Positions 35,611 to 64,000 of a stretch of DNA of 64,000 nucleotides are shown here, piece by piece (the stretch's first letter is position 1; every line of letters starts with the position of its first letter). The notes below the pieces were generated by a model. It saw nothing but the letters and a program-made list of their open reading frames with translations. It did not search any database and had not been told where the DNA came from. The DNA is from Branchiostoma floridae (Eukaryota; Chordata; Leptocardii; Amphioxiformes; Branchiostomatidae): contig NC_049993.1 of assembly GCF_000003815.2 (NCBI RefSeq), forward strand, positions 11,813,436 through 11,877,435, given 5' to 3'. The position numbers and the translations under genes are program-made.

Positions 35611-38600
35611 ATGACGAAAAGAGGAATGGACACATTCCACTTGATCGTCCTTCCGATCGTCCTGTTGTGTTGTGTTGTGGGGATATGTGGTGAGACGGAG
35701 GTACACGGCACATGCACGAAGGATGATGGGGTGGACTGTGGTTCAACAAGCTCGAGTTTGGAAGTTTCACCGATTATCACAAAGCTTGATGGTGTAGAGG
35801 TATGCCGTATGGGTATACATGCACATGAACTACGTTCGGTCTTTTGTGGCAAGATTTAGGCCTGCGTCACATTTACAGACTGTGGCCCGGCCGGACAGCT
35901 TTCGTGAACGAAAGTATGATATAAAAGACACACAATTACATAAGACGTAAAGAGAACAGCACGGCCGGCCCCGGTTTGGAGTGTATTGGGGGAAAACAGA
36001 CAGACAAACATCAGACAGACAGAGGGAGGGAGCCAGTGTTCGTATTTTGGGGAAATCTGATCCACTGGAAAGTTAACTACAGCCACTTTCTGTCTTAGGT
36101 CGGACATGTGCAAGATGTAATTCTTGGCGGGAAAACACATCAGATGACGACATTATCGATGAAGCCGCAAGTTCTAGGTAAGTACTAGTACTCATGTCGA
36201 CTTTCCAGATTTCAATACATGTATTTCCATTGATTATAGATTTCTTACGAGACTGTCACTTAAAGCTTCTTTGAATAGAATCTTCAAGCAGGCTGCAACA
36301 GAAGGAACCACCGACAAAAATTAAGGCCTTTTCCGGAATAAAACAATCGGCACTTGCAGCAAAATCACAAGAAAGCTCAGTTTGCCATAACAGTTAATTG
36401 CATCATGCATGCAACCATCGCACGTCGGTACGTGCCCGGGCCCTTAGTCTTAAAGTACATTTAATATAGCGCTAGCTTTTCATCAGCCTGTCTTTATCGT
36501 TTCTGGTATTCCTTACAGAGATCAAGCATTTTTTGACGGATGAGGAGTGTGATCACGTGGTCCGGCTAGCTAAGAAGGACGGGATGTTCGACAGTGTGAC
36601 CAACACTCCCACCAAGTCTGGCAGCGTCAAAGTCATGGACATGAACCAGGACACGGCTCTCAGTCTCAGGGAGGTGAGCGGCTGACGAAACTTCCTTAAC
36701 CAGCAAAAACTGAAATGAAATCGATTTATTTGAATGTTGATTTGATTATATGCATGACCAAACAGAACATATTGTGGATCTGAATAAAGTCAAGTCAATC
36801 CTCTGGGAACCCCCAAACTGATGTGAGCGTGCGAATAAAAAATAAGTTTGGCAAAACAAGTTGCTTTCAGTATGAAATCTAAGTGGTCAGAAGGGTTGAA
36901 CAAATGACTTGACACACTGAGTGAGGTATACAAAACACTAGATTTTCAATTTTGCTCTTTCACGTTTTCTATGACATTGGAATCTACTTTGGCATTTATT
37001 TAATGACATAAGTATCCGCTTCGGCATATAACTGCTCATTTTACAGCTGTTTGCAATTGGTACGATTTACAGTGTGTTTGAATTTTTTTTTCTATTTTTC
37101 GAAACGGCCGAAAATTGATGCGCGCGCGGATGTCATCCATATGATACTATCAACATGGCCTTAACAGTCGTTGCCTATTGTATGAGAATATGTGGACCAA
37201 ATATCGTTCATATGCTTACTAATAAAAGATGTCATTTTCTTTTCAATTCAGTTTATTCTGACGATCGAGAACTCATTTGACATCTATTTGGATGAGGACG
37301 ACATGCTGAAGATGTGAGTTGTTTACACATTCTGAAAGTTCCGGGAAAGTGCATTCAATCGAATGGTGTTCAGCACCAAGGACAGGTCCACTTACTCCAC
37401 TACACACTAGTGTGTGGACGTCACTGATTACGTTAACAACATTGGACCGGCCCGGACGCGCAACTAGTAGAGAGAAACAAAACTCGTGTATTTGAATTTT
37501 TGCTATATCTTTATGCATTATGATTCTCCTCTTTTACCGACATGCACCAAAGCAATATCTAAAGTCTACCACGGTTTTCTGTTGCAGGTATTCCGAATTA
37601 GGCATGGATCGCAATGGTGACAGTGAGTCAAAGGCATTCCTTATCACTTAAACAAAGTTGTTTCCAAATCTTTGAAATTTCAACTTCCGCCGTTTTTTTC
37701 AGGACTTTCCGTTCTTGTTGTAGGTCATATGGTAACTCTTTATCTTTGCTATTTCCATCGTCCATATCTCAGCGGAGATATCAAGGGAAGAGCTTCATGG
37801 GCAAGATCCAAAGTCCGTCATTGATTGGTTGACGGACTACGTTGACAAACGGCCGTACAAAAAGTCCCGGATGAGCCGACAGGCCTGGTTGTACCCCAGC
37901 AAAATTCACGACAAGATTCTGGACGAGATACAAGAGAGGTGGATTTACACGGCTTTATCATAGCATACATCGCATATTTTTTCATTTGTGTTGGTAGTAA
38001 TCATAGTACAATGCTGAACTTTCTTCACAAGATCAATACGGATGACTAAGGACGTTAAAAAAGGAATATTTTTTCAACCTCCTTGGGATGGCCAATCACT
38101 TCAGTCTTCAGAACGTAAACTCACTCGTAACACGCTTATGGGTCTGTAACTCTCGCGTTCTGAAGTGACTGGTCATCAGTATTGATCCTGAAGAATGCTA
38201 CAGTGGTCGATTAAATTTTGATCCGTGTATACCTTTGTGTCGGAAGAAAGTTTAGCACTATAGCATCTGTCTTTCCTTCAAGTGATTGAAATGGACGTAC
38301 ATGTATGTCGGGGGATAATGCAATTGTACTAAAATTTTAGTACACCTTGATGGCTAGTTTGCCTCCATACGGAATCTTAAAGATCATGTACTGAGACATA
38401 TCTTTTATCGTATAAATTTTTCCTCATCTAAATTGTTTGGATTTGCTTTCCCAGGGTGGTTAGCCTTGTGGGTTTGCCTCGCATTCTAATAGACAAGAAC
38501 GACGAGTTCCAGGTGGTACAGTACGGGCCGAAGGGGCACTACCACGCGCACTGGGACTCCGGCAGCTGGGCCGAGAAGTACCCGTGCTGTCATCACGTCA

Positions 38601-40423
38601 AGAGCGGGGCGCGATGTAAGTCCTGCAGGTAAGGATAGAACATGCGCCGCGACATTTTGCGCGATAGTCTCTACCAGGCTGACTACGCTAGCTATTGTAG
38701 GGAGAATAATTTGCCAGGAGAGTTTTGCTACCCGGAGCTGTCGGCCAACCGCGCAACGGAGGGGAAACTTGAACCTTAGTGTGGACTGACTCCCCTGGCC
38801 AATTTCCAGACTTTTTGCCGAATTCTACGATCCCCGCACCCCCATAGGAATGCCTGGTGGAGGCTAGCGCCGAGGTAAGATTACATCTGCAAAACCCTTT
38901 TCAAAGGAGGGGGAAAGGAGGAATACTTATTTGGGTATGTATTTGATCGAATGGTGTTCAGCACCAAGGACAGGTCCAGCTTACTCCACTACCGTACTGT
39001 ACTGTACTGCACTAGTATGTGGACGTCACTGATATACGTTAGCAACACCGGACCGGACGCGCGACTTGGATTTGTTCAGCTCACTTCTTCAGATTATCTA
39101 ACATTGTCTCCATAAGTACAAATTGATATTGACAGAAGATTGCGACACCTCAATTTTCTCTATCTCTTCCTCCCTCTGTTTCTCTGGTCATATTACAGAG
39201 GCCGGTGAACCGTTAACCAAATGTCTGAAAGTGCTACTTATCGATTTTTTGTATAAAAAAATTCATTCATGCCTTTCCTTTCCTTTTCTCCTACCGTAGG
39301 TTCATGACCGTGCTCCTGTACCTGAATGAAGTGGAGGGAGGCGGCGCTACTGCCTTTCCTATCGCGAACAACGAGACATTCAACGAAAATGTGAGAACCT
39401 TCTTTTAATTCACATTAGGGATTAGACCATCCTAGTATCTCACTGAAGCTGCGGTACGTTAGCGGCGTCGCTGTGGCCGAACGATTTGACAGATCTCTCA
39501 ACGATTTTTATCGATGAAAACGAACCATTTCATGAAGTTTGTTGTCTTCCAGTTATGATTTTCCATTGTAAAGTCAAGGGTAACACAAATCCATTTTAGG
39601 TGTACGGCTGCCAACGTTCAGTGAGATGCCCGGCCCGCTTTAGTAGCAAGAATATCTAAAAGGTCTTGCCCAAAGTCGTTATGCTTTGACTCTCCTCTGT
39701 CCATGATGTTGATCTTATGATCTATATATTAATCCTTATTCATCTCTGATGTGTTTTCGTCATATTTTGCTCTAGTCATTCCGGATGAGCGGTAAGATTA
39801 ACCTCCATCGGCACTGTGAAGACGCCAACTTAGTCGTCCCGGCGGAGAAGGGGAAGGCTATCATCTGGTACAACCACCACCTGGATCCTACAACGGGTAA
39901 GAACTAATAAACTATTCCTACAATATTGATATCATATTTATACCATATTCAGCATCTCTCTGTCTTAGATTTCTGCGTACAGTGCTGAAATGATACTGCA
40001 CTCGTACCCAATGCGTATAAGTGAGGGTGACACCAAAATGATGTTATGGAGAGATTCTAAATTTATATACAGGTCAATATGGCCATATCCATGATAATCA
40101 AGTTTGGTAATCTTTTGAGTGACTGTTATGTCGATTGGGACTTTCGTAAAGGCTCATAGTTTATAAAACACCATTGTCAATGAGTTTTCTTGCTGTTCGA
40201 CATACATGTATGCCATTGATAGGGTAGCATACGTGTAAATTAAAGAAATGCCAACGTCACAATTCCTGTCCTTACAGGGTGGGTGGGAGAAATGGACAGT
40301 TTCACTCTGCACGGGGGGTGTGGCGTCACCAGTGGACACAAGTGGATCGCTAACAAGTGGATACTGGTCAGCGACAAGCGAGACAAGGACCTGGACCCTA
40401 ACTTCAAACCCAACAGAGCATAA
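35611..40423 (+). CDS. P4HTM: P4HTM-like transmembrane prolyl 4-hydroxylase
   Basis: Ten exons join in frame to 405 residues: 35611-35799, 36099-36177, 36519-36673, 37252-37313, 37588-37622, 37773-37938, 38455-38628, 39300-39390, 39776-39896 and 40278-40423. An N-terminal hydrophobic stretch (about 10-26) is a signal anchor or signal peptide. MKPQVLEIKHFLTDEEC matches the start of the P4HTM lumenal region. Two EF-hand loops fit the 12-residue pattern: DMNQDTALSLRE (130-141) and DRNGDTEISREE (169-180). The catalytic double-stranded beta-helix has H261 and D263 in HAHWD, distal H369 in LHGGC and the 2-oxoglutarate lysine K379 in HKWIANKW. It should be an Fe(II)/2-oxoglutarate dioxygenase of the ER, with calcium binding likely. 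In vertebrates P4HTM is linked to HIF regulation. It is somewhat shorter than human P4HTM and lacks its long N-terminal segment. Confidence 0.94.
37345..37460 (+). repeat. Dispersed repeat in P4HTM intron 4, copy 1
   Basis: The segment from TCGAATGGTGTTCAGCACCA through AAGGACAGGTCC, TTACTCCACTAC, GTGTGGACGTCACTGAT and ACGTTAACAACA to GGACGCGCAACT is repeated in the same direction at 38944-39068, in intron 7. Its class is unknown. Confidence 0.8.
38941..39072 (+). repeat. Dispersed repeat in P4HTM intron 7, copy 2
   Basis: This is the second copy of the 37345-37460 repeat, in the same orientation. It differs by a GTACT microsatellite-like expansion (CGTACTGTACTGTACTGCAC) and a few substitutions. 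It is intronic and non-coding. Confidence 0.8.
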
Positions 40424-43266: not shown

Positions 43267-46200
43267 CTACCTCTGCAGTACAAATGACAGTGTAGCCAGG
43301 ATACTGAACCCTACAGTCAGACACAGCACCTTGAGAAGTCTGTCCCCGTCCTTTTCCAGCTCACGCCCGAGGATCTCGAAGAACGTGACATGGATGAACG
43401 TGCCCGCGGCGAGCCCCTGGAGGATTGCACTGATCACTGCTGTCACAAACCCTGGCTGGGTCTGCGGAAACACAGTTCAATTGGTTAAAAACATGACAAC
43501 CACATCAGCTATCAAAGGCACATAGCTTAAAAGTTGATATATAGAAATGTATCAGTGGAAGAAACCATCCCAATAGTGTGCAAAAGAAACAAGGAAACCA
43601 GTCTACTTCTTTCTTCCTTATGTTCTTAATTCACTTTCCTACGTGCTAGCATTTATGCTTATTACACTTTATACTACATACGTCTGCTGATGATGTACAT
43701 AGATGTACCTTGTTGGTCTGTTTATCATCACTTTGTCTGTCACTTTTATATCATCACATGTAACTTTTTGCAAACATCTATGGCCATACTAAACTGTGAT
43801 GTCTTTCACCCACACATGCAGTTAGACACTTATGTCATTGTAGTATGTAACAAAAGGCATCCACAGTATGTGTACAGCACAATGTATGCCTCTTTTTTTT
43901 AACAACCCACCTGGATGCCCATCCCAGCGCCCATGCCGGCCGGTACCATGACACAGAACAGTAGTGCCAGTTTCACCACGGTGGGCGTCTTCATGTTAGC
44001 GGAGACCAGGTTCACGCCCAGCGCGAAGGCTGCCAGACACTCGTGGATCATCACTCCTATGTACAGGTTCACAAATACTCCCATGTCCTCCTGGAGGCCT
44101 AGACAGAAGAGAAAAATACATTTAGTACCTTGCTTTTTTAAACATAACCTAGCCTTTTCACAATATTAATGCTACAGAAAGATGAATGAACTATGATTCA
44201 AATTATACATATCATATTCAAAATTTACATAATGTCATAGGCATGCATGAACCAGAAAGAAGACATGTAAGACTGATAAAATTGTTAATTTTATGGCACA
44301 GTTACATGGACTCCAAAATAAATGATTCAGTTCTAATGTTAATGTATTATCTATTGTGAAAGTAAACTGTATGAAAAATTGAGTGCCACTGCCTCTGAGT
44401 TACAAAAACACAAAAAATTTCCTCTTTACTAATAAATAAGATACTATATCTTTTTACATGGACTAGGACTAGGTTATACAAACTACCTACTCTCTTAGCA
44501 GAGATTGTTAGGAAATGGTGCTAGCAGAAAAAAACAGGGCATATAAAAAGACAGTCACTATCTTCCCCGCCAATTGCTCAGAGACTACTCACCCATGGCC
44601 AGCCCCTCGAACACAGAGTGCACAGACAGCGCCAAAAGCAGCACATAGGAGCGGAACGAACTCAGCTCTCCCACACCCTCAAAATGGTCGTGGTGCAGGT
44701 GGCCGTTGTGCGTGCTGTAACGTAAACTCTGCTGTTCTGCATCTGATGAGGATTCGCTGTCCGAGTCCGACTCGCTACTTCTGCCCAGCCGACTGGTTTG
44801 TTTACTGACAGGAAAGAAAAACAGCATGTCAGGTGTGGCATCTGGATTGTTCCTTTCAAACAAGATATGATGGCAACAAACATTCTGCACTTTGTATAGT
44901 TTCTTCTTTGACAATTCACAATGTGCGTCTATCAGACTGAATACCTCTAGCTAAAATTTTGTAATCATATCAACAGGGCAAAGTGGTATTGTTCGACATA
45001 CATTCCTAACATTTGGTCTTGTATGAAGAATAATTTGATCAAGTACTAGAAGCTTAGATTTCTCCCCACTGCCTAACCTACATATTTGGTACCAATAGGC
45101 TAAATGTACTTTAGAAGGAGAAGGGTTAAAACTGTTGACCTGCTGAGATTTTTTTTAGCCAATTTAACCCCCCCCCCCCCCCCCCCTGAGCTGTGTGATT
45201 GATCAGATCAGTAAAATTGGACCTATTCTGTGCTGCTGCTGCAGATATACAGTACCTCCCGAATAGATGTGGTTTGCTGCGGTATGCCGCATTTAAGTGA
45301 GAAATGCCCCAAACCCAAGATACTCGACCAACATACAGGCATTATATACGTTCATATATACTTGGGTATAGCAGGACAAGGGTTAACTTAGAAATAAACC
45401 AACCACTGCAGTAGTGTAGTTAGGAAAAGCCTTACCTGCTGCCTAGTGTCTCCATCTTCAGTAAGCCTGTTCTCTGGGGTTTCTTCTGACAGGAGTGAAC
45501 CACCTGTTCTACAAACACTGACAGGAGCAGACCAACCTGGACAGGGGGAGGGGGGTGATGGGCATAGGTTACAGGAAATTAGCCTGGTATCTAAATACTA
45601 TCTATTTATATTAGCTTCACTTCAATGTTCACTTCAACCTTCACTTCAACTGAGGTAGCTGCATAGTCTTTGTAATGTACACATCACAGGGCTGTAACTA
45701 TCCCCTCGCGGCAATGTGGCATGGGCTGCTATAAGCACAATTTAATCAGGCTACTGTGCAGGGAAGTGACCATTGAATGGAATTAGAGTTAAGATGGGGA
45801 TGGATACTATGGACTTCAGGAAAATCAGACTACTACTAAAGATCAAGGTACTGAAATTTAATTGATATATGAGCTGGCTTTGCTTACCTCCCAATGCAGG
45901 CAAGCAAATTTCCTTCACTGCCTGGGAAGACTAATGTTTTGAATTTTGGAGATTTAGAATTACATTTTTAAGCATGTACGATGTAGGTTGGGATTATCTG
46001 TAATCATTATGTGGAGGCAAATAACATCAACTTACAATAGTGACTGTCTCGGCTAGCGGGTAGTTAACTTTAATGTCCTTCATGGTCAGGGCATTCTCCA
46101 CTTTCTCCCTGACCGTTGGCAACAGGCCCAGAAAACACGTGGCCAGGAATACTCCGCCAGCGAAACACGACATCAGGCCCAGCGCACGCGACGTCCGCCG

Positions 46201-46320
46201 CTGTCTCTGTCCGAAGTCTGTCTGTGGCCGAGCGACACACTTGAGTGGAATGATAGTCATAATGAAGAGGCCGATGAACGTGCCTCCCAGGCACAGGCCC
46301 TTTACTACCAACAGCTCCAT
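43267..46320 (-). CDS. SLC39A1: ZIP-family zinc transporter, ZIP1/2/3 (SLC39A1-3) subfamily
   Basis: Five minus-strand exons join in frame to 326 residues: 46036-46320 (start), 45436-45536, 44593-44804, 43911-44098 and 43267-43461 (stop). Eight membrane segments are visible. SCFAGGVFLATCFLGLLP in TM2 is the ZIP1-3 signature. The TM3-TM4 loop is acidic/serine-rich (SESDSDSESSSDAEQQ, 139-154) and then histidine-rich (HNGHLHHDH). TM4 carries the metal site HSVFEG (H191, E195). TM5 has H218-E219 where mammalian ZIP1-3 have HK. TM7 has LQGLAAGTFIHVTFFEIL. It should import zinc, and perhaps other divalent metals, across the plasma membrane. An acceptor-like CAG lies about 32 bases upstream of the ATG, so a 5' non-coding exon is likely further upstream. 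It is co-orthologous to SLC39A1-3 rather than a specific one. Confidence 0.95.
45169..45187. repeat. Poly-C homopolymer run
   Basis: A run of about 18 cytosines lies in ZIP intron 2. It is a length-unstable simple repeat, and the exact length in the assembly may be unreliable. Confidence 0.9.
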
Positions 46321-47192
46321 GGTTTTAGTCTTCCTCCAGTTACACAGATCCTGTGAAAAAGAAATTGAGTGTTGTCAGAATGTTTGGTAACAGATAAGTA
46401 AGTAACAGATTCAAATTATGTCATGTAGTGTTTGCATATTCCTTTCACATTCTAGATGTTCAGTATCATTATCATTATTACATACATCCTCAGTACTGGC
46501 AAGGATCCTTTACAATGTAATAATGGGGGAGAATTTGCACTGGGGTGTACTTAATGATATTTTCTGTGTACTCAGCTTGTGAAAACACCAGATAATACCA
46601 TGATAAGGGTACTGTGATGGAAAAATTTTGAATGGAAAAATTGTGTAATTGCTAGTAATGGGAGAGTCAATGTTTATGATACAGTGTGGTCCGTCTGCCT
46701 TGCTTCTATATATATCATATATTGATTTCTCATTAGTACATGTACGTGTACATGATGATATCTTTTGATAAATGAGAGTAAATCTAACACATTGACTCTA
46801 AATACTAATGGCTGATAAATACTAAATACTTGTAGCAACAAAGAAATATCTTCCATAACGATAAAATTTCCATTACTACAAAGGAGTATCTCTGATTCCA
46901 CTGAAAACTGCGCATGTATGCTGTAATGTCATGTTAACAGTGGACGTTATCACCACCATGTAAGTGTTGTATCAATAAACACCTTGACTACACACTAAAC
47001 AACACGGCATGTGATTTAATCTCAACGTTTGACGTCAACTTCAACAGTCAAACTTCTGCACCAAATGCGAGATAATCTCACCAGCAAATGATGTGAAAGA
47101 CCACAAATGTTAGCATAGGAAAACAAAAAACAAATTGAGATTTTATTGCAGAAGGAGATATGAATGACTTCCCTGGTATCCAGACCTATATA

Positions 47193-50806: not shown

Positions 50807-53800
50807 ATGGTGAGTATAAGATCTGTTTCTTGTGGCTCTAGTTTAGAACTGCAAGTTTGATAATTTTGCTTCTTGTTCTCGATTTTCAGGTTGTTAGTAG
50901 CTTATTTACAAGGTTTCTTGATATACCACAATATCACAGTTTTCACCAGAACTTGTAGAAATAGAAAATGGCACTTTTAATCAATCAGTAAAGTTGTATC
51001 AATCTATAGCTCTGTAGGCTGTTATACAGCAAGAAAACGACTGTACTGGTCAAATCAGTTGCAGTGTAAGAAATCCGCCCAATCGGATCCACAAGCCACG
51101 GTGTAGAAAATGAAGATGCATTTCTGATGATGAGAGAGGACTTGATTTTACAAAGAAATGACGGGCGAGATCTGAAGCTTTATTGGGGAATACATTGCAT
51201 ATTAAGCTGTTATCAATAATATTAGTGATTTAATTTCTAAAGTCTCTCCCCTTTTCAAATTTTGAAGAAAAAAAAAAACTCCTTTGCCTGTTCTAGATGC
51301 TCTCACGAGCCAAGCCGGCCACTGGACCAGCGGCCTCCAGTCCTGCTAAGGAGTCCAGCAAGAAGAAGAAGAAACTGCCCAAACTGGAGGACTACCTGAC
51401 CAACAGGGACTACACTGGGGCCATCACACTTCTCGAGGTAGAGGACAAAATGTCATTTGAAGAGCATGATTTAATTCTCTCATTTCCAAATACCTTCGAA
51501 TTCGTACACTGTAAGACTGTAGCTATATTGATTTTGTATGTCGATATTGTTTTATGTTATTTTTTATTTATGTTTGATAATCAAACCGAGTAATGTTGTT
51601 TCTCTTGCCCCACCAGTTTAACAGATCGAGTGGTAAGGGAAGTGAAGAGGTGGACATGTGGATAGCCTACTGTGCCTTTCACCTGGGAGAGTACAAAAGA
51701 GCCATGGAAGTAAGTTACCCTTATTTCTCCAACCCAATTTGGCAAATGATCCTGTTTATCAGTACAACAAAATCTGCAAGCTTAACAGTTTTTAAGGGGA
51801 TTTTCAAGAATTAGATTTGTTGATTTGGATTGGTCCACAGTAGTTATAAGGCTAAACCTTGGGATCTTTTTCTTTTACACTACCAGTTAATCTCACCTGC
51901 TGATGTTTCGATGCCTCTCAGACATCTTCCTCAAAGCTTCTTATTGGAGTTCAACTCTATATATAGCAAACATAGGTAGCACTTCATTGGTTGTGTAAAA
52001 GAAAACCCTACTATCCTATGACCTACTAGTACCAACGTTAACCTGATGAAATTATTTTCGTATGGTTAAACCATGTTGCTAAAACTGATACCCGTCCATC
52101 CCCAGGAGTACCAGTCCATGACGAAGCGAGACGGGTGCCACCCTGACGTCTGGGTGAACCTGGCCTGCTGTGACTTCTTCCTGGGCATGTACAAGGAGGC
52201 AGACGAGGCCGCGCAGAAATGTGAGTCCTGAGGGCTGGGTGGGCGTGGGTTTCCATGGCAACGGGAAAAGTCCTTACATAGAGGATGACTCATTAGAAAA
52301 TAACATTGGACAATATTCATGCATGATGTCTTTGATTTATAGAATTATATTTCTCAGCTAAACTGTAGCAAACTTGTGAAATTTTGTTTTGAACAGTACT
52401 AACATAGCATCAATGATTGTTTGCAGTCACTTTTCCGCTATGTCTTAGATTGTTTAATCACAAACCCATAGAAAAATCTGACATTAACTTCTTTGAGAGA
52501 AAAGATTGCAGTATCTGAAATCATTGCATGACCTTATTTTGTTATAATATTTCAATTTCAAACAATGGACAGTCAAAATGGAATTATACAAAGCCTGATA
52601 GTTTAATTTGCACATGGTCATAAGACTATCTGCTATCCATTGTTAACCAACTACTAACCAGTGTTAACCACCCGCTAACCAATGTTTACCAAATGTTACC
52701 ACCTGTTGGCCATTGTTAACCACCTGCTAATGATTGTTAACCAGTTACTAACCATTGTTAACCACCCGCTAACCATAATTGTTAATCAAATGTAACTGCT
52801 AACCATTAACTTACTGATAATAGTAACTAGCTGCTCATTATTGTTAACCACCTGCTAATGATTGTAAACCAGTTACTAACCATTGTTAACCACCTGCTAA
52901 CCAGTGTTAACTACCAGTAACCATTATTTACCACATGTAACAACCTGCTTACCACTAACCACCTGCTAACCATTGTTACCAAGTGTTAATTATTGTTAAA
53001 CAAACGTTAACCACCTGCTAACCAGTGTTAACTACCAGTAACCATTATTTACCAAATGTAACCACCTGCTAACCACCTGTTTCCACATCTAGCCCCCAAA
53101 AGCCGCCTGCAGAACCGCCTGCTCTTCCATCTCTCACACAAGGTGAGCCAGAATTCCGACGTAAGCCAAACATTTGTTTTTGCCAGTTCCCTCTCACAAC
53201 TGGCTTGTACCTCATGCACCTCTGCATGGCTGACATAAAGGCTGGGACTACAAGGTCTCCCTCCCTCTGCAAGCATGCATCTACATGTATAAGCATGAGG
53301 CAATGTCTGGTACTTTTTAGGAACTGCCTGTTACAGAAGATCTTGCATGGTGCTTGAATTTTGTGACACCAAAATACGATATTTTCTTGTTATCTATACC
53401 AAGAATAGTATCATTCAATTAGCATACCGTCAAATGTTTACACCAAATACAAGCCCTACTAATGTTATTGAACCTTGCGACAATATCTTCAAGTCTGAAG
53501 AACAATTTTTTTGATGGCGCAATTTTCAATAACTCAAGGGTTTATGTATGTATTTGGTGCACACACATACGTGTATGTTGAATGAATAATACTATAATTA
53601 TAATTGTTGTGGAATATAAAAAGAAAATGGTTTCATGCCGTCCTTAAGTGAAGCTTTCATTAATTTTTGGGACAGAAACAGATGTCCTATATGTAGTGGA
53701 GGGTTTCATATCCAAACAGAATTGTTAAAAACTGAAGCCCTGCTGAAATGCTAGGAAGGAAGAAGTTACTATAAACAAAGAGAGGAATCTATATAAAGCC

Positions 53801-56800
53801 TTTGACAATGATAGTAAAACTTGCCATGTTGTGCATCATGAAGCCACACTGTGTTCATGTGTGCAGCTATCCTGTCATCACCCAACTTTTCAGTCTTTGC
53901 AACAAGCATGTGACAGCTGTGTAAAGCTCACCGCTCAAAGAAGCATGGCATTCTTCATTGTGCACTGTGATGTTTTGTGTGGTTGCACGTGAAAGCCCCA
54001 TGTCATCAAACTGCATGGATCATTCGAGCTGTGCTGTAGTATACTAGTAGTAGAATTGTGTTATTTTGTAGAAGTTGTATGGGACATCACAAGAAAAAGT
54101 AGTGAATCAAGAGCTAAGAGTTTTGCATTTTTTTTAAACGTTGGTCTTTTTTAGTATCTTAGTATCTTTTAGTATTGATTTGATGACTTTTAATGAGATA
54201 CTAAGAAAGATCCCACATCAAATATAAATGTGGAGTTTCAAAATAACTGAATATTTTTTTATCATACATTGTATGTGTGCAGATTGTACCAGCATACTAA
54301 ACACTGATATGCAATACGCATTTTGGACTCATGATATCATTTTCATAATGGAGTGCATGTTGCGTAAACTGGGAATACAAAAGTGCCCATACAAATTGTA
54401 TATGTACGAGTATATGCACTTAGTAATGTGTGGCTTGTTCAAATTTGCTTGATTTGTCTCTTCTGCATGTTTTGCTGCTTGATATCTTGTCTGTACTGTG
54501 ACTATTGTGAAACGTGTCCATGTTTTATGTGTCTATACGTGTGGCTTGTGTTCCAGTTTAATGATGAGAAGAGACTGATGCAGTACCACCAGAACCTGCA
54601 GGATATCATCGAGGACCAGCTCAGTCTGGCCTCCATCCACTACCTCCGCTCACACTACCAGGAGGCGATAGACATCTACAAGAGGATTCTCCTAGATAAC
54701 AGGTCACTTAAGATTATCACACATCTACCCAGAAATGTGATTTTCTACTGATTGAAATCTTTTCACTTGTAGCAAAAGAGATACATGATTTTGATATGGC
54801 AGTGGGAGTCAGATACTAGAAAATTGGACTATTGTTTTGAGTATCCCCCATTCACAAGTTTTCGCAAAGAAAGAGAGAGTCTGGATTGTGGCCTGATCAT
54901 CTGGACTTGAACCAGATCCTCCTTGATAACAAGTCGCTATCAATTACTAGACATTTACATACAAATGTGAGGGGAAATCTTCTCACTAGTTTACATTTAT
55001 CTATCGACAAAAAACTTTTCAGTTGTAGCAAAAGAGTTACGGGGTATCATATAGGAGCTGCATTTTTTTACTACCCTGACTCAATGTACAAAGTGTATTT
55101 TGATGAATCTAAAGCTGTAGAGAGGGATGTTGCAGTTTTGTTTCAAAGGTTATGATAAAACTCCTTCTAGGATGGGTGTAGCCGTATGTTGTACAGGGAG
55201 CTCAGCTATAAAAACATGACAACATGAGCACATATTAGATGATATCTAGGATTTCATTGTACAAAATCTATTTCTATTTGCAGTGATTTGTGAACATACC
55301 GTAATATGTTTTTTTGTTTAAGTCTAGTATTAGGTTGAAGTCAGAACATACAATGTACTTTGTTTAAAGAGTCACTGCTGATCTTTTCTGTTGTCTAATG
55401 CTACCATTATCTGCCCTACCTAACAGAGACTACCTGGCCCTGAATGTGTATGTGGCCCTGTGTTACTACAAGCTGAACATACAATGTACTTTGTTTTAAG
55501 AGTCACTGCAGATCTTTTCTGTTGTCTAATGCTACCATTATCTGCCCTACCTAACAGGGACTACCTGGCCCTGAATGTGTATGTGGCCCTGTGTTACTAC
55601 AAGTTGGACTACTATGACGTATCCCAGGAGGTGTTAGCTGTGTACCTACAGCACTACCCTGACAGCGCCATCGCTATCAACCTCAAGGCCTGCAACCACT
55701 TCAGACTCTACAACGGCAAGGCTGCTGAGGTCAAACATTTCTCTTCAACTTGTTGTCGCAAGTTTTTCTGGAAAAGCTAAAATGAGCATGTACAATGTGT
55801 AAGGTAGAGGGAAGTCATAATGACTGTGTTTTAGTGAATGCTCTATTTACCTAGTTAAAGATGGCTAAACTCTTAGGGATTTTCTCTTTCAAAAAACGGA
55901 AAAAGTAGAAGGAATGTTTAAAACTCTTCCCCCAGCCTTTCAAATGTAGTACAGTCAAACCTGTACAGGTAGCCACCATTTTATAACAATACTAACAAAG
56001 TTCTGCTAACTGTGTATTCTCTGTTGAGCATCACATCAGTTACCTCTTTACCAGGTAGACCAGTTTCAGATTCAACAAGTTTCATATGGACATTTTGGCA
56101 CAAGCATTAAGAATCCTTTCTATAGTGACCGCCGCCTGTCCACACAGACCAGATTTTATCTGTCCCATGAGTGGTCTTCTTGCACAGTTTTGACTGAAGA
56201 TTTTCCTGTATCCCACAGCAAGAGCTGAAGACCCTCTAGGAGATGGCCTCCCCCTCCTTCACCTTTGTTGCCCTTTCTGGTCTTCTTGCGCAGTTTGACT
56301 ATGGCTTTAAGATTTTCCTGTATCCCACAGCAAGAGCTGAAGACCCTGCAGGAGATGGCCTCCCCCTCCTTCACCTTTGCTAAGGAGTTGATCAAGCACA
56401 ACCTGGTGGTGTTCCGGGGCGGGGAGGGGGCCCTGCAGGTCCTCCCGCCCCTGATAGATGTCATCCCTGAGGCACGACTCAACCTCGTCATCTACTATCT
56501 CAGACAAGGTGAGATTTTGATATTTACGACTGAAGTTGTACCAGAACTAAACTTAAAGTTGTACCAGAACAGCACTTGAAGAACTCACAGTGTTCCAGTT
56601 TTCTGCAATAGGTAAGAATTCATATCTCCACATTTTTTGGTGGTCTAAAAATAGTTGCTTGATCAATTTACTTAACAAACTTGCAGAAAAAACACAAAAA
56701 TGCTATAGTGTAAGATTGAGCTATGACCATTGAAATGCAAATAGAGACACCAATATGGCACCTGCCTGCTTCATTGACATGGAATGTAAGGGAAGTAGTT

Positions 56801-59800
56801 GTTTGTTATGTACAATGCTTTTAAGCAGTGTCTTATTTCTGTCATCTCTCCCTCCCCAGATGACGTATCTGAAGCCTATAACCTGATCAAGGACCTGGAG
56901 CCAACCACGCCGCAGGAGTACATCCTGAAGGGCGTGGTTAACGCCGCCCTCGGACAGGAGACGGGATCGCGGGAACACCTGAAGATCGCCCAGCAGTACT
57001 TCCAGCTGGTGGGAGGGTCTGCCAGCGAGTGTGGTGAGTCTTACAGAGATGTTTAGGTTGATGCTGTTTTTCTGATATGGAAGTTCTTGTGTAATGGTAC
57101 AAAATGGTATGTTTTATTGACATTTACCTTTAAGTTTATAAGTACCAATGTAGCAGGCTGAACTATACTCCCAGCCAGAATATATACCCAGGTATATTTT
57201 GGCCAGGGGTGTATTATGACATGCTGCACTGGTAACAGACCAGTGCAAAGAAAGTACCATAAGAAATTAAGAATGATATAAACTTATAAAAGAACAAAAG
57301 AGACTGTGATGAAAGCTTGCTTTAAAGGGTTTTATGTTTTTGCTGATTTTTGAGATGTTGCTTATTAAAAGATCTTATTGGTCCTTAGTGTTCTTTGTTG
57401 CATGTTAAAATCACCTAGGAGAAAAGATGGTTTGCTAAGAGTGAGAAAGATAAAGAACAGTGTACCATTGACTGTATGTGTACCTTAATGCCTGTTCCTG
57501 TTCTTGCAGACACCATCCCTGGCAGGCAGTGCATGGCGTCATGTTTCTTCCTACTCAAACAGTTTGAGGATGTGCTGATCTATTTTAACTCAATCAAGGT
57601 AGATGGTAATTTCTGTCTTGTTCCTAATAGTATGGTCTTTTTGATTCTAACAAAAATCAGTTTTGGTTGCTCCTAGAATCTTAGGTTGAATGCTTGGAAT
57701 GTTTGCCATAGACCCCGCATTTGTAATTATCATATTTTTCTTACATATATTTCTCTACATATATGTCTGAAGAATCCTGAGAGTTTATTTAATTCTTCTG
57801 ATTGTGACAGATCTTAGGAAATGTTGAGGAAGAGAGGAAAAACTTCTTGGCCTTTAAGGGTAATGTCTTTTCAGTGCCATGTTTCATTGAAGTTGTGTTG
57901 TGCCTTTTGCAGAGCTACTTCTACAACGACGACACGTTCAACTTCAACTACACGCAGGCGAAGGCCGCCGTGGGAAACTTCAAGGAGGCAGAAGAGGTGG
58001 CCCTGCTTGTGCAGAACGAGAAGCTGAAGAATGACTACACCTATCTCAGCTGGCTGGCTCGCATCTGTAAGTTACACTGAAGTGTCTGTAGGGATTTTCT
58101 ACTGGGGCTCTGTTAGAATTAATTCAGAATCCTTTGTAAACAAAAGATAGCAGTTCTTTGGATCTTAGCAGGTTAAAGAAAAGAGCACTTTAGAGAGGAA
58201 TAGTACTTTAAGTATGATGTTCTTCCCCCACAGACATCATGAACAACAAGGCCCGGCTTGCCTGGGAGTTGTACCTGAAGATGGAGACTTCAGGAGAATC
58301 CTTCAGTCTCCTGCAGCTGATAGCTAATGACTGTTACAAGGTATGGAGTCTTATGGAGAGGAATAAGAATCAGATATGTAAGAACTTACAAGCACTGGAT
58401 ACATTTTCCATGATGAAAACAGAAGTTGTCTTAAAGAGATGTATTGACCATGGAAACGTAATGGAGAAGTACCTTGTCATTTTTTTGTGTGGATATAGAA
58501 AGTAATAAACAGGTTGACACTTTGTCTTGTACTGTTGTAGATGGGTTAGGTGCAAAAATTTAATGTATTACCATGCTTGCCACAGATGGGACAGTTCTAC
58601 TACGCAGCAAAGGCGTTTGATGTACTGGAGCGACTGGACCCGAACCCTGAGTACTGGGAAGGCAAGCGTGGCGCCTGTGTTGGTGTCTTTCAGCAAATCA
58701 TCGCCGGGCGGGAACCAAGGTGAGTCAGAGTTCCCACCAGAGCTTCCACGCTTCATGTAAATTCTACAATCAGCTTGTATAGAGCTTTCTGTAAGTTACA
58801 AATGGCTAGAAGTAGGGGTGGGTACCGGTACAGAAAATACAGGTATGGTCCAGACCTGAATCTGGGCCTAATTATCTGTCAAAACTTGTGAATGGGCGAT
58901 ACTCTAAACAACGGTCCATTTTGCTACAAAAGATTCTGTTTGGTGCAGCATCCAACATCCACTGGCATTTTAAAATCTTATCTTATGTAAACTTAATGTT
59001 TTAGACCAAGTTTGAGTGTAAAACTTGAGTAAACGACTATCAACTCTCCTCTACTTCCCTCGTTATTTATTTTGATCTGTAAGCCCCCAAACACCTGAAC
59101 GCCTACCAGTATAATCTGTTCAGTTTTGAATTGGTCCAAAACCAGGTCCACTGATATTTCTAGAAAAACTGGACCGTTCTCTCTCTCTCTGTTTGACCGG
59201 TTTAGCGTCCGTTCTTCCCTGTAGCAGGGGTTGGACGTAGAAAAACTGGTATTGTACCGGTACATCTTACCAGTACCCACCCCTAGCTAGAGGCCCTTTC
59301 TTTAAGACATGTGCAATGTTAAGACATGTGCAATGGCCAGAGACACTGCTGATGGCTGGCGTGTGTTTACTGCTTCACTTCAGCACCAGAAGAAACACCC
59401 TGCAGCTGGTGGAGTAATGTTAACATATCGTTTCTCAGTCTTCAAAGACAGACATGTGCAATAAAGTTTCCCTTGCGTTTTTAGGGAAACGTTGCGGGAC
59501 ATCATCCAATTGCTCCACAATACGTCTAATATGCAAGTGGAGTATATAGTGCGGACCATGAAGAAGTGGGCAAAGGACAACAGGCTGGGCATTCCATGAT
59601 GGTTAGCACAACACGTTTCCACACAAGTCGTCCTGTCACGTTGTAGGGCTATAGTCTGAGTGGTTTGTACTACAGTGTGCTTTACCAGGTCACTGATGTT
59701 TGTGGACCCAGAGCTGTGGTGTGTGGCCTACTGTATTTACCCCAATAATTGCACTCTCTCCATATAAATAATACTGTACTACTTACTATTACTACAGTAA

Positions 59801-60919
59801 CACAAATGATAATTTATTCTAACTTCAGCATGCACAGAACAGAGCTAGAAAAGATCATATCGGGTGCATAGTTTTTTTTAACAATGATTTGATGTGTGCA
59901 TTATTGGAGTAGGTATGGTAGATGTAACACAAAAGAGTCTAACTCTGTCTTCTGGTTCTAAAAGACCTGTCCAAATGAGTAGTCCTGTCCAGTTTTTCAA
60001 CATTTCTGCAGCAATTGTCAGGTAAAAGGTGGCAGCTGATCAGCCAGTGCAGCCCTGAGCACAAAGAAGGCAGCTGGTTTGAATCCTCTTTTTTCCGCAG
60101 AACCTCACGAGTCTTCCTGACTTCTCCTGTTGTAGTGTGGTGTCCTGGTCCCCCTGTGTCATCCTGATCCTCAGGTTCAGCACAGCATGGCACACTGGGA
60201 TCACCAGCACTCAGAGTCACTTCTCTCACTGCCATCTTTTCTTCTTCATTTGTTCTTTTAAAATTGGCAGTGCCTATGACTTCATGTACATTACATAGAG
60301 GAACATAAATGCCTTTGGGAGCATTCTCCTGCACAAAACCTACTTAACCAGGTGGAGGTTTCTACTTTAGTGGGCATGGCCTCTGACCAGGTAAAATTGA
60401 TTCTCTGACAGCTGACAGCCACACCCACAAAAGTGGAAATCTCAGCCCAGTTTATCAAAATCTCCCCAAGGTAGATTGTATAGGCTGTGGGCAAGGCTTT
60501 GCATGGGAGAATGCTCTTATGTGTGTTCCTTTACACATGGCAGAATGTATAGGAGCCACGCTGTCTTTTCTGTTGATGTGTGCTTGCATTTGCATTGGCA
60601 ACAAAAGTACATGTAATAGCCTGGTATGCAGCCTTGTTCAGCTAAGACCTACTTCCCAATGGTTGTTACTGTTGGGAAGCAGATGAAAGCTGGCCTGCAT
60701 ACCTAGGCTATGATATGGTCCTAGTGGTAAAGGTGTTGCAGAATCTATTTGATTGACAGAGCCCAGTTTAACCTGCAGCATATGTTGTTCTCTCCATGCT
60801 GCAGGGACAGTGTGCGAGAGATAGTCCAGCTGCTGAGGAACACCAGTAACCCACAAGTAGAGTACATCACCAGAACCATCAAGAAATGGGCAAAGGACAA
60901 CAGAGTCTCACTCAGCTAG
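50807..60919 (+). CDS. TTC26: Intraflagellar transport protein IFT56 (TTC26/DYF-13)
   Basis: Fourteen coding exons join in frame: 50807-50809, 51297-51437, 51617-51709, 52106-52220, 53093-53142, 54557-54702, 55558-55729, 56331-56508, 56860-57033, 57510-57598, 57913-58066, 58234-58340, 58586-58719, then one of two last exons, 59485-59599 or 60805-60919. Either gives 556 residues; human TTC26 has 554. The first coding exon supplies only the ATG, giving MMLSRAKP as in vertebrates. The protein is a TPR/alpha-solenoid; [48 protein letters not shown] and [14 protein letters not shown] follow IFT56 throughout. IFT56 is a peripheral IFT-B subunit needed to carry motility cargo into cilia. Candidate poly(A) signals follow the distal last exon (61512, 61548). 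Several internal exon duplications are described separately. Confidence 0.97.
52640..53085 (+). repeat. Minisatellite, TTAACCACCTGCTAACCA type
   Basis: Imperfect tandem units built from TTAACCA, CCTGCTAACCA and TTACCAAATG words fill most of IFT56 intron 4, directly before the acceptor at 53092. Many units contain CACCTG. The period varies (about 11 to 24 bases), so the array is degenerate. It is non-coding. Confidence 0.88.
54685..55050 (+). repeat. Diverged tandem duplication covering the end of IFT56 exon 6
   Basis: The exon 6 end and following intron (GATTCTCCTAGATAACAGGT onward, about 54685-54783) are echoed at about 54915-55040 (GATCCTCCTTGATAACAAGT, then ACATTTACATACAAATGTGA and AGTTGTAGCAAAAGAGTTAC). 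The second copy lacks a usable donor (AAG followed by TCG) and has an insertion. It is an old, non-coding duplicate. Confidence 0.65.
55344..55605 (+). repeat. 131-bp tandem duplication spanning the IFT56 exon 7 acceptor
   Basis: Copy 1 is 55344-55474 and copy 2 is 55475-55605. I count about four substitutions, so it is recent. Each unit contains the polypyrimidine tract, the acceptor and the first 48 or so bases of exon 7. Only copy 2 continues into the rest of the exon. Copy 1 keeps an AG acceptor (AACAG/A) but has no donor. Confidence 0.93.
56172..56379 (+). repeat. Tandem duplication of the IFT56 exon 8 start; first copy carries a stop
   Basis: Copy 1 (56172-56267) and copy 2 (56278-56379) both contain TCCTGTATCCCACAG followed by CAAGAGCTGAAGACCCT. 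Copy 2 is the true exon 8 start. In copy 1 the reading frame hits TAG at the seventh codon (CTC TAG instead of CTG CAG), and it has no donor. It is a decoy acceptor or pseudo-exon. Confidence 0.92.
58805..59293. mobile_element. Non-autonomous hAT-like MITE with 8-bp target duplication
   Basis: The element occupies 58813-59285 (473 bp). It starts TAGGGGTGGGTACCGGTACA and ends TACCGGTACATCTTACCAGT followed by ACCCACCCCTA, an inverted match. It is flanked by GCTAGAAG (58805-58812) and GCTAGAGG (59286-59293), an 8-bp duplication with one mismatch. These ends and the 8-bp duplication are typical of hAT elements. There is no transposase ORF. It sits between IFT56 exon 13 and the proximal last exon. 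Confidence 0.88.
59485..59599 (+). CDS. TTC26: IFT56 alternative last coding exon, proximal (14a)
   Basis: After a TTTTTAG acceptor the exon reads [15 protein letters not shown], then [22 protein letters not shown] and stop. It is 115 bases, the same length and phase as the distal exon. It is closer to vertebrate IFT56 at its start (ETLR). No AATAAA is seen in the next few hundred bases, so its 3' end is unclear. Confidence 0.85.
60617..60710. repeat. 94-bp foldback element
   Basis: The arms TAGCCTGGTATGCAGCC and GGCCTGCATACCTAGGCTA pair, and pairing resumes inside (CTTCCCAA with TTGGGAAG). It lies about 95 bases upstream of the distal IFT56 last exon. It is MITE-like or a snapback repeat. 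Confidence 0.72.
60805..60919 (+). CDS. TTC26: IFT56 alternative last coding exon, distal (14b)
   Basis: After a CTCCATGCTGCAG acceptor the exon reads [15 protein letters not shown], then [22 protein letters not shown] and stop. It is 115 bases, in the same phase as 14a. Its end (NRVS) is closer to vertebrate IFT56. Two AATAAA signals follow at 61512 and 61548. An intact frame and conservative differences from 14a imply both are under selection. Confidence 0.88.
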
Positions 60920-61952
60920 AACATACACCAATCTGCTGACCAGCTTCTACTATGTTTCAATTATATTATAGAAAGAAAGGAAATACATTTTTATCATAGG
61001 GTATCAAGACATTGGGACTTTCTGTTCATTTTAGAAAAGAAAATTTATTAGAATCTGATATCCAAGTAAATTTTGTAACTTCTATGGCTCATTCCCTGAC
61101 ATATTGGAGAACAATATGAGCATTGTACATGTATATATTTGCATATAAAATATTGTATATGATGTAGGTTGTCATCATCTCTTCTTCTCATAACTATTAT
61201 TGGCAATCTAGAAACTATTTGGGGATTGATATTCTCATAACTTAAAAAAGTGGACAGTCTACCTGAAGGTATCAAAATTGTGTGTTTTTTATTTCTTTCT
61301 TGGTCAGATTGACAAATAGGAGTTTTTGTGGGGTGAATTCACAACATTTTCAACAGTTGTAGTTGAATCCACAATGTATAAAGCATTGTATTGCAGATAT
61401 AAGAACAAATTAATTGATGTAAGGTACAATGTATGGATGTTCCCTTCCATAGATTTGTTGAATGTTCTGTATAATTTACTTCAAGGATTTGATGCTATCA
61501 GTCATGCTGTAAATAAAATGTTCTGTACAGCAGTTTGAAACTTTGTAATAAAGATAGAACACATTTTTCTTCAACAGTTGTCTTGAGCAAATGAATCTCG
61601 TTATGTTGCTAATTGAAATTAGAGCAGCAGTCTACACATAGAAATTTAAAAGTTTAAAAACATCACATTAAAGATCAAGTCAAAATAATCTCTTCATTGA
61701 TAATTTATCTCTTCATTTTATGAAAATATACATGTACATTCTATTTGTAAAAAGATCTGGCCTTACAGTTCATTTGTAATCTGAGGTAGGAACTACCAAC
61801 ATATGACGGGATAATTAGTTCCTTCCCCACTGTTGGTAGCCTCTTTGGCACAATCCCTTTCTGCCGGGGGCTTATCGGGTCCTTCTAGAGGCCTGATCGG
61901 TCAAAGGGCTGCTAGAAGCTTGATTTAGTCAGGCTACAATGTCGGTGACCAA
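60920..61952. other. Convergent 3' region of IFT56 and IDO
   Basis: The IFT56 3' UTR probably runs to shortly after AATAAA at 61512 or 61548. The remainder to 61952 holds the IDO 3' UTR on the minus strand. No other gene is seen. Confidence 0.6.
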
Positions 61953-64000
61953 TCAGGTGCCAGACACATCCGGCAGGAGAGCAGCAGTTGTGGTGTCTCG
62001 TACACTCTTCAGGAACGTCATGATACCTGTTTGGTACAGATAAACAGCTCAGTCATTTCCACAAACACAGTACTAGTCTATGTAATTCTTCATCCTGTTC
62101 AGTTAATCTGTAAATTTCTTGACAATTTGTATCTGTATAAGGTTTGAGGCATAGTACCTGTTCCACCCGTGCCAACATTTGCTAATCCTTCAACCTTGTG
62201 CCCCTTGGCTCTCTTGGAAGGGATGACAATGTAGCTGTAGGCCAACACATTTAATTGTTAAGAATTAATGGAAAGAAATTTTCAAAGAAGCGTCTATAGA
62301 GACACAACAGAGAAAGGTAACATTTGCAAGCAAATACTTGCAACTTTCCTTTAACCTTCACTTGGTCTAGCCTAACAAACTACAGCTATGTTTATTCTTA
62401 CTCAAACACATTGATCATATATATGGTGACCAGCCACTCTGGCTCCATCCTGCCACTTGCTACATACCAGTAATGTATTGAACACCACAGTGTGCCGCTA
62501 CTTTACAACTAACCATTTGCATGGTCATTGACCTTATTTGTTTGAAGAAGAAGAAACATAAGCTATGCAAATTAAATAACATACATGTAGCAACAACTAT
62601 GAAAACTCATAAATATGATAAGATACCTTGCAATGATACTAATATGCAGTGAGCGGAAGTCTCTGAGTGTGGACACGCAGGTATTATATGCAGTCCTCAA
62701 CTCCTGATCATCAGTGTTTGACACAAAGTTGCGTACGGACGGACCCTTGCCCACATCAGCTATGAAGTTCCTGTGAGCCGGTAGCATGTGGTCCCTCATC
62801 CTCATCAGGAAGGCACCTACAGGTGGAGGTTAATTGTTAGTCATTGGCCACATTCTTGGCTAGGAGAAACCTGTAAAATGTCATTTGTGGCAGCAGTACA
62901 TGTATTTGTACTACTTACCTTCTCTGCCATTATGTTTGATTCCGAGAAACTCATCCAGGCATTGTATTGTTGCGACTTGGGCAGCACTTCCCCCAGAAAG
63001 CTGGAACGGTTCGTCCCTAACACCCTCGTAGATCAACCCACGGGGGAGGGCGGGGTTGTCCTTCCAGCCTGACAGGAAGTACCGCAGCTGGTTGTAGAAC
63101 ACTTCCGTGTCACACTGCTCCTTCATTCTACCTAACGTCTGCTTCATTTTCTTCAGTACAGGTATAATGGCAGTGAGAGCATCTCTGGTTGACTTGGAAT
63201 TGCCTTCAAGTACCCCTTTCTGTGCCTGATCAGGTATAAACACAGAAGACTATTCAAGTTACAATGTAGTAGAATGGGGTAAATAGATAAACTCCAAGCA
63301 GATCTTGTGATGGCATAAGATAGTATCATAAGCTGGGGATGGAGTTTAGCCAGCAAAGGAGTTCTTTAGCAACTGCTTAACTCCTTCCACAGCTTATGAT
63401 ACTATCTTATGCCATCGCAAGATCTGCTTGGAGACTAGTCAATAGATCTACTACATAGCAGAATATAGAAATAAATGAGATGAACTCATAATACTTAGAA
63501 ATGTACCACCACATGATACACTGTTTATAAATTTGCTGTAAAGATGAAATGCCCTTTTTTTCAAAAGAAACATAGTCTTGTGAATGACTGTCTATATATT
63601 TGCATTTGTCACAAGTAAGACCATTGCAAAGGGCAAACAAACCTACCTCTAAAACCAGAGGTAAAGCTGCGATAAAGTCAATCTCTATTTGAAGGGGTAT
63701 CAAGGCAAACCAGGAGAAGTCTCGAGGACAGGTGATGCAGAAGAGTAATTGAAGATTGTCCAGCTCTAGCGGCCCCTTGGGATCCTTCTTCTTCCAATTG
63801 GCCAGGCTGACACAATGGTGAGAGATGATTGGTGGAACCCCGAGGTGCTCCGACACATGGTACCAGGGAACAGCGACGCTGCGGGGCAGGAAGTCTGGTA
63901 CACCTGCCTCCCCCGCCTGCCACACGTAGGCGTGGCCGATGGTGCTGAGCAACAGGTGGGCCAGGTGCCACTCCAGGGGACCCTGTAGCCGGGTGTGGTC
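61953..64000 (-). CDS. IDO1: Indoleamine 2,3-dioxygenase, C-terminal part, partial
   Basis: Five minus-strand exons are visible: 63647-64000 (runs off the window), 62919-63225, 62627-62816, 62158-62234 and 61953-62026 (stop). They give 333 in-frame residues. Family landmarks in order are AYVWQAG, SLANWKKKDPKGPL, FYNQLRYFLSGWKDNPALPR (matching the human F226/R231 active-site strand), GGSAAQVATIQCLDEFLGI, the proximal haem histidine in LPAHRNF (human H346) and VGTGGTGIMTFLKSVR. IDO oxidises L-tryptophan to N-formylkynurenine, the first step of the kynurenine pathway, in the cytosol. About 70-100 N-terminal residues lie beyond the right edge. It could be called IDO1, IDO2 or proto-IDO; invertebrate IDOs are known to differ widely in tryptophan affinity. 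Confidence 0.95.
63292..63434. repeat. 143-bp foldback with about 55-bp arms
   Basis: Arms at about 63292-63346 and 63379-63434 are near-perfect reverse complements (CTCCAAGCAGATCTTGTGAT against ATCGCAAGATCTGCTTGGAG), with a loop of about 32 bases. It lies in an IDO intron, some 65 bases upstream of the exon 63225 acceptor on the coding strand. It is most likely a snapback MITE. Confidence 0.85.

Follow-up and report, generated by a model that had tools for sequence, protein, structure and literature searches.

Genes in which homologous last coding exons serve as alternatives have been described before. In KRAS, exons 4A and 4B are homologous alternatives of this kind that give the protein different C-termini; exon 4A, located between exon 3 and exon 4B, is described as having been retained for more than 400 million years (PMC9882654). 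In Drosophila, pip and the 3′ variable regions of PGRP-LC have mutually exclusive terminal exons that arose by tandem duplication, so that one gene selects among several 3′ terminal units, and for PGRP-LC competing RNA structures are reported to act on the splice sites (PMC9013439). A human survey of mutually exclusive exons handled terminal exons apart (PMC5740500). Our subject is a locus in the amphioxus Branchiostoma floridae, where the gene for IFT56, a subunit of the intraflagellar transport (IFT) complex IFT-B, carries two homologous last coding exons, the proximal A and the distal B, which are probably used as alternatives. The gene lies on the + strand of a 64-kb stretch of DNA, called the window below (assembly GCF_000003815.2, contig NC_049993.1, positions 11,813,436 to 11,877,435); coordinates count from its first letter.

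The locus resembles KRAS in that a single gene has a homologous pair of alternative last coding exons. However, KRAS exon 4A is described as captured from exon 4 of NRAS (PMC9882654), whereas we propose an in-place duplication for IFT56, and the KRAS ends bear membrane-targeting motifs, whereas those of IFT56 form the C-terminus of a tetratricopeptide repeat protein. With pip and PGRP-LC the locus shares the choice among 3′ terminal units, but the units of pip are eight clusters that lie in the 3′ untranslated region (UTR) (PMC9013439). The protein itself is the one known as IFT56, TTC26 or DYF13, given the near full-length match to the Chlamydomonas subunit described below. IFT-B membership and movement in cilia are known for this family (PMC3936282, PMC10191852). 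IFT56 is described as a peripheral IFT-B1 subunit to which an adapter links inner dynein arms (PMC10191852); flagella of the dyf13 mutant are depleted of motility-related proteins, and IFT56 is needed for bringing a set of such proteins into flagella (PMC3936282). Among the papers listed by searches of an open-licence library, no title or abstract opening reports alternative IFT56 C-termini. IFT56 looks like a new case of the arrangement, in a core IFT-B subunit, and both isoforms may already be present in existing gene models.

Two last coding exons behind one upstream exon

The + strand gene is IFT56. When the peptides of 11 exons were joined to that of B, the product matched Chlamydomonas IFT56 (PDB 8bd7_E) over nearly its full length, with E = 1.9e-212 and query residues 5–536 aligned to residues 6–555; Pfam returned nothing above its cut-off for five exon peptides. 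The last constitutive exon, the twelfth in a manual exon-by-exon reading, precedes both A and B (Table 1).

A first-pass annotation of this DNA had proposed that IFT56 has two intact, mutually exclusive last coding exons, and its coordinates, lengths, acceptors, entry phase, common stop codon and quoted peptides were all correct on recheck. A and B are each 115 nt long and each follows an AG acceptor with 13 pyrimidines in 17 positions. An Arg codon is split after its second base between the preceding exon and each of A and B, so that both exons are entered in the same phase (AG/G in both joins), and a stop stands at the equivalent codon of each, after 37 aligned residues. The two exons agree at 70 of 115 nucleotides and 24 of 37 residues. 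By comparison, only 36 of 120 flanking positions agree (19/60 upstream, 17/60 downstream), and thus the similarity is confined to the coding exon. In a tblastn search of the window, A and B matched each other at an E value of about 9e-15; beyond this pair, the best remaining matches to the two peptides had E values of 0.17 and 0.80. Together with the genome search below, these values rule out chance similarity.

Table 1. Coordinates of the IFT56 features in the window
Feature	Position	Strand	Remarks
IFT56 coding part common to both ends, ATG exon through last constitutive exon	51297..58719	+	exon peptides and 8bd7_E match
ATG exon of IFT56	51297-51437	+	
Additional internal IFT56 exon	about 53093-53142	+	placed by eye
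Last constitutive exon, donor AAG/GTGAGT	58586..58719	+	single match in genome search
Terminal-inverted-repeat element, intron before A	58813..59285		18-base arms 58813-58830 and 59268-59285, 94% complementary
Possible hairpin that includes the acceptor of A	59466..59490	+	predicted 8-bp stem GUUUCCCU/AGGGAAAC
Alternative last coding exon A, proximal	59485..59599	+	37 codons and TGA
TATAAA, weak variant hexamer, speculative signal for A	59763..59768	+	
Alternative last coding exon B, distal	60805..60919	+	37 codons and TAG
Two AATAAA poly(A) signals	61512..61552 (at 61512 and 61547)	+	sole AATAAA in 59600-61700

The first-pass annotation had also held that both exons resemble the conserved IFT56 C-terminus while differing from each other at many residues, and both statements were borne out. 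Against the C-terminus of Chlamydomonas IFT56 (8bd7), the A peptide has an E value of 1e-5 and the B peptide one of 2e-6, with 18 and 17 identities, respectively, in a 38-column alignment set by hand. A and B are thus equally near the Chlamydomonas protein, and neither is visibly degenerate. No third copy of the exon was found when the window was searched with the peptides of A, of B and of the Chlamydomonas C-terminus.

A wider search covered the genome of 513 Mb in 431 contigs. The preceding exon joined to A matched three places at E ≤ 1, namely the preceding exon itself, A and B; this search scores its best candidates only, and for this query all 3 of 3 were scored. Since the preceding exon has a single match in the genome, both ends must be joined to the same upstream exon, and a second IFT56 gene as the source of one end is unlikely, as far as the search shows.

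Constraint on both copies

Differences between A and B are concentrated at third codon positions, with 12, 7 and 24 differences at positions 1, 2 and 3 of the 37 codons. A codon model fitted to the pair drove the branch length to its set bound, with synonymous change saturated and a nonsynonymous divergence (dN) of about 0.26. With omega held at 0.05, 0.1, 0.5 and 1, twice the log-likelihood difference from the free fit came to 3.5, 6.6, 24.4 and 38.2, the two highest values of omega fitting much worse; these figures are not exact probabilities. GC content at third codon positions (GC3) is 0.70 in A and 0.68 in B, which places both within the range of 0.61–0.86 seen in six further IFT56 exons and above the overall GC content of 0.44 for 58720–60804, a segment that includes A.

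Because the free fit lay at a boundary and drew on only 37 codons, a simulation was added. Two copies were evolved from A or from B. One was constrained throughout, at an omega of 0.02, 0.05, 0.1 or 0.2; the other began under constraint and evolved freely over the final 0, 10, 25, 50 or 100% of the branch. With four branch lengths this made 80 settings of 150 runs each, and a run was counted as matching when it kept at least 24 identical residues, showed at least 22 third-position differences and had no stop. The largest share of matching runs in any setting was 44.7% without a free period and fell to 18.0, 4.0 and 0.7% with free periods of 10, 25 and 50%; no run matched when the second copy was free throughout. 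Many settings came near zero, some with full constraint among them, because their branch length or omega was unsuited.

The codon pattern and the simulation together indicate that the protein sequence of both A and B was under selection through the greater part of the period since the duplication. Read from the sequence in this way, both copies have long been strongly constrained as coding exons, and a pseudo-exon neutral since the duplication is ruled out.

Proposed choice of the C-terminus and rival explanations

We propose that an old tandem duplication gave IFT56 a second copy of its last coding exon and that both copies were retained as alternatives. In the pre-mRNA, the single preceding exon would be joined to either A or B, each with its own 3′ splice site, and the choice between these two terminal sites is the likely mechanism. 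Because each exon contains a stop codon, one mRNA takes its C-terminus from one exon only, and the two ends are mutually exclusive as C-termini, as first claimed. The gene can probably make two proteins that differ only within the last 37 residues. We infer that both ends are expressed; any functional difference between them is putative.

How the transcript would end is easier to see for B than for A. When A is skipped, the B form would end at the two canonical poly(A) signals downstream of B. These are the only AATAAA hexamers in 59600–61700, in agreement with the initial remark that the distal exon alone has clear signals, and ATTAAA occurs in the same segment only at 61667. Of 12 hexamers looked for in the A–B interval, just two were present, both weak variants: TATAAA (59763) and CATAAA (60304). 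Messages ending in A could arise by cleavage at such a weak proximal site. They could also contain a long terminal exon that starts with A and continues past B, then 3′ UTR, until the distal poly(A) site; this route requires no further signal, and we consider it no less likely than proximal cleavage. A further route would start from a seemingly weak donor, GTTAGC at 59602, which lies two bases past the stop of A, and splice onward to B as untranslated sequence. Splicing from exon 4A onward to 4B is reportedly a feature of KRAS. Thus, the initial interpretation is supported in part, namely for an intact and homologous pair of alternative last coding exons that would give isoforms of equal length; separate poly(A) sites would not be required if A runs on to the distal one. 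The first-pass annotation also took vertebrate IFT56 to have a single such end and suggested that the two isoforms may be tuned to different ciliated cells, which we treat as a hypothesis.

RNA structure at the splice sites offers a lead only. The predicted hairpin at the acceptor of A folds with a z-score of −1.19, equalled by 23 of 200 shuffles and not significant; the fold at B has a z-score of −2.15, equalled by 8 of 200. Among the nine of the gene's 13 listed acceptors that were folded, A and B had the lowest z-scores, the other seven ranging from −0.97 to 1.37. In this respect IFT56 differs from PGRP-LC, since its hairpins are only predicted and are matched by shuffled sequence to this extent.

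The predicted A and B proteins are of equal length and differ at 13 of their final 37 residues. By manual reading, about nine of the 13 changes are conservative (for example D/E, I/V, L/V and R/H) and a core segment is common to both, whereas the final four positions have no residue in common, LGIP in A and VSLS in B. The variable C-terminal segment is recognisable as far as Chlamydomonas. If the two ends defined two kinds of IFT-B train, with different cargo or for different cilia (motile versus sensory, for instance), splicing would let amphioxus tune a core IFT subunit that would be invariant in other animals. We regard this extension as speculative and rather unlikely. An old, selected pair of C-termini would mean that train composition is tunable by splicing inside one gene, and the pair would allow a direct test of the role of the IFT56 C-terminus in cargo choice. 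Alternatively, the ends could be interchangeable, a variant of our proposal that does not exclude it. The choice would then affect the 3′ UTR, RNA stability or the amount of protein, and the 13 differences would reflect near-neutral drift in a constrained helix. The conservative changes and the common core favor interchangeability. However, long retention of two copies is more easily explained if they are non-redundant, and the four final residues are all different. Interchangeable ends are possible, with the odds somewhat against them; they would make IFT56 another clear-cut example of a duplicated terminal exon.

We consider it quite likely that A and B are tandem-duplicated, alternatively used last exons behind one upstream exon and that both have been kept. 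Several points weigh against this reading. Twelve AGs of similar pyrimidine content, those of A and B included, occur in 58740–60805, so that sequences resembling acceptors abound there and the acceptors alone are weak evidence. The omega fit comes from 37 codons with the branch length at its set bound, constraint was measured solely between two copies within one genome, and some fully constrained settings of the simulation also lacked any matching run. The hexamer scan found neither AATAAA nor ATTAAA between A and B. Finally, disuse confined to about the most recent tenth of the period after the duplication is compatible with the simulation, where up to 18.0% of such runs matched. These last two points, along with the canonical signals that accompany B and the inverted repeats resembling mobile elements on both sides of A, also fit an account in which A is a relic, long used and recently disused, so that only B makes the C-terminus today. 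Yet A is open, with a normal acceptor and stop and the GC3 of a coding exon; it is as near Chlamydomonas IFT56 as B is; and it could use the distal poly(A) site without a signal of its own. A relic of this kind strikes us as improbable. A duplication created by the assembly, in which A and B are alleles of one exon set in tandem, recalls the recent 97% tandem copies elsewhere in the gene and the high heterozygosity of amphioxus genomes. Alleles, however, would be expected to be far closer than 61% identity, and the unlike flanks and the one upstream exon likewise argue against it; identity and flanks together rule such a duplication out for practical purposes.

Repeats, tandem copies and neighbouring genes

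The IFT56 gene also contains recent partial tandem copies of exon starts, each 97% identical with intron bases included. At 55344–55605, a 131-base tandem repeat copies the end of an intron and the first approximately 47 bases of an IFT56 exon, and this recent repeat creates a decoy acceptor. At 56197–56379, a 71-base repeat with a spacing of 112 bases copies the beginning of the following IFT56 exon together with its acceptor, and the upstream copy contains an in-frame stop. Thus, tandem duplication has occurred recently here too, and one of the two fragments is broken, in contrast to the intact, saturated pair A and B.

Part of the terminal-inverted-repeat element in the intron before A (58872–58926) recurs inverted, at 82% identity, at 54817–54871 in an upstream IFT56 intron. 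Two more inverted-repeat pairs, perhaps small mobile elements, lie between A and B at 60319–60516 and 59728–59921, with arms of 23 and 22 bases that are 78 and 77% complementary. A degenerate GTTAACCA-type repeat array occupies 52601–53076 in an IFT56 intron.

Elsewhere in the window, two + strand stretches (38432–38632 and 39229–39408) look prolyl 4-hydroxylase-like by eye, and Pfam assigned a family to neither. On the − strand, 43267–43476 and 46027–46374 are exons of a ZIP zinc transporter (Pfam Zip in both stretches). Two − strand exons at 62572–63249 belong to an indoleamine 2,3-dioxygenase-like gene (Pfam IDO, again in both stretches) that lies tail-to-tail with IFT56. An inverted repeat at 63292–63433, with 59-base arms that are 93% complementary and 24 bases apart, apparently falls in an intron of this dioxygenase-like gene.

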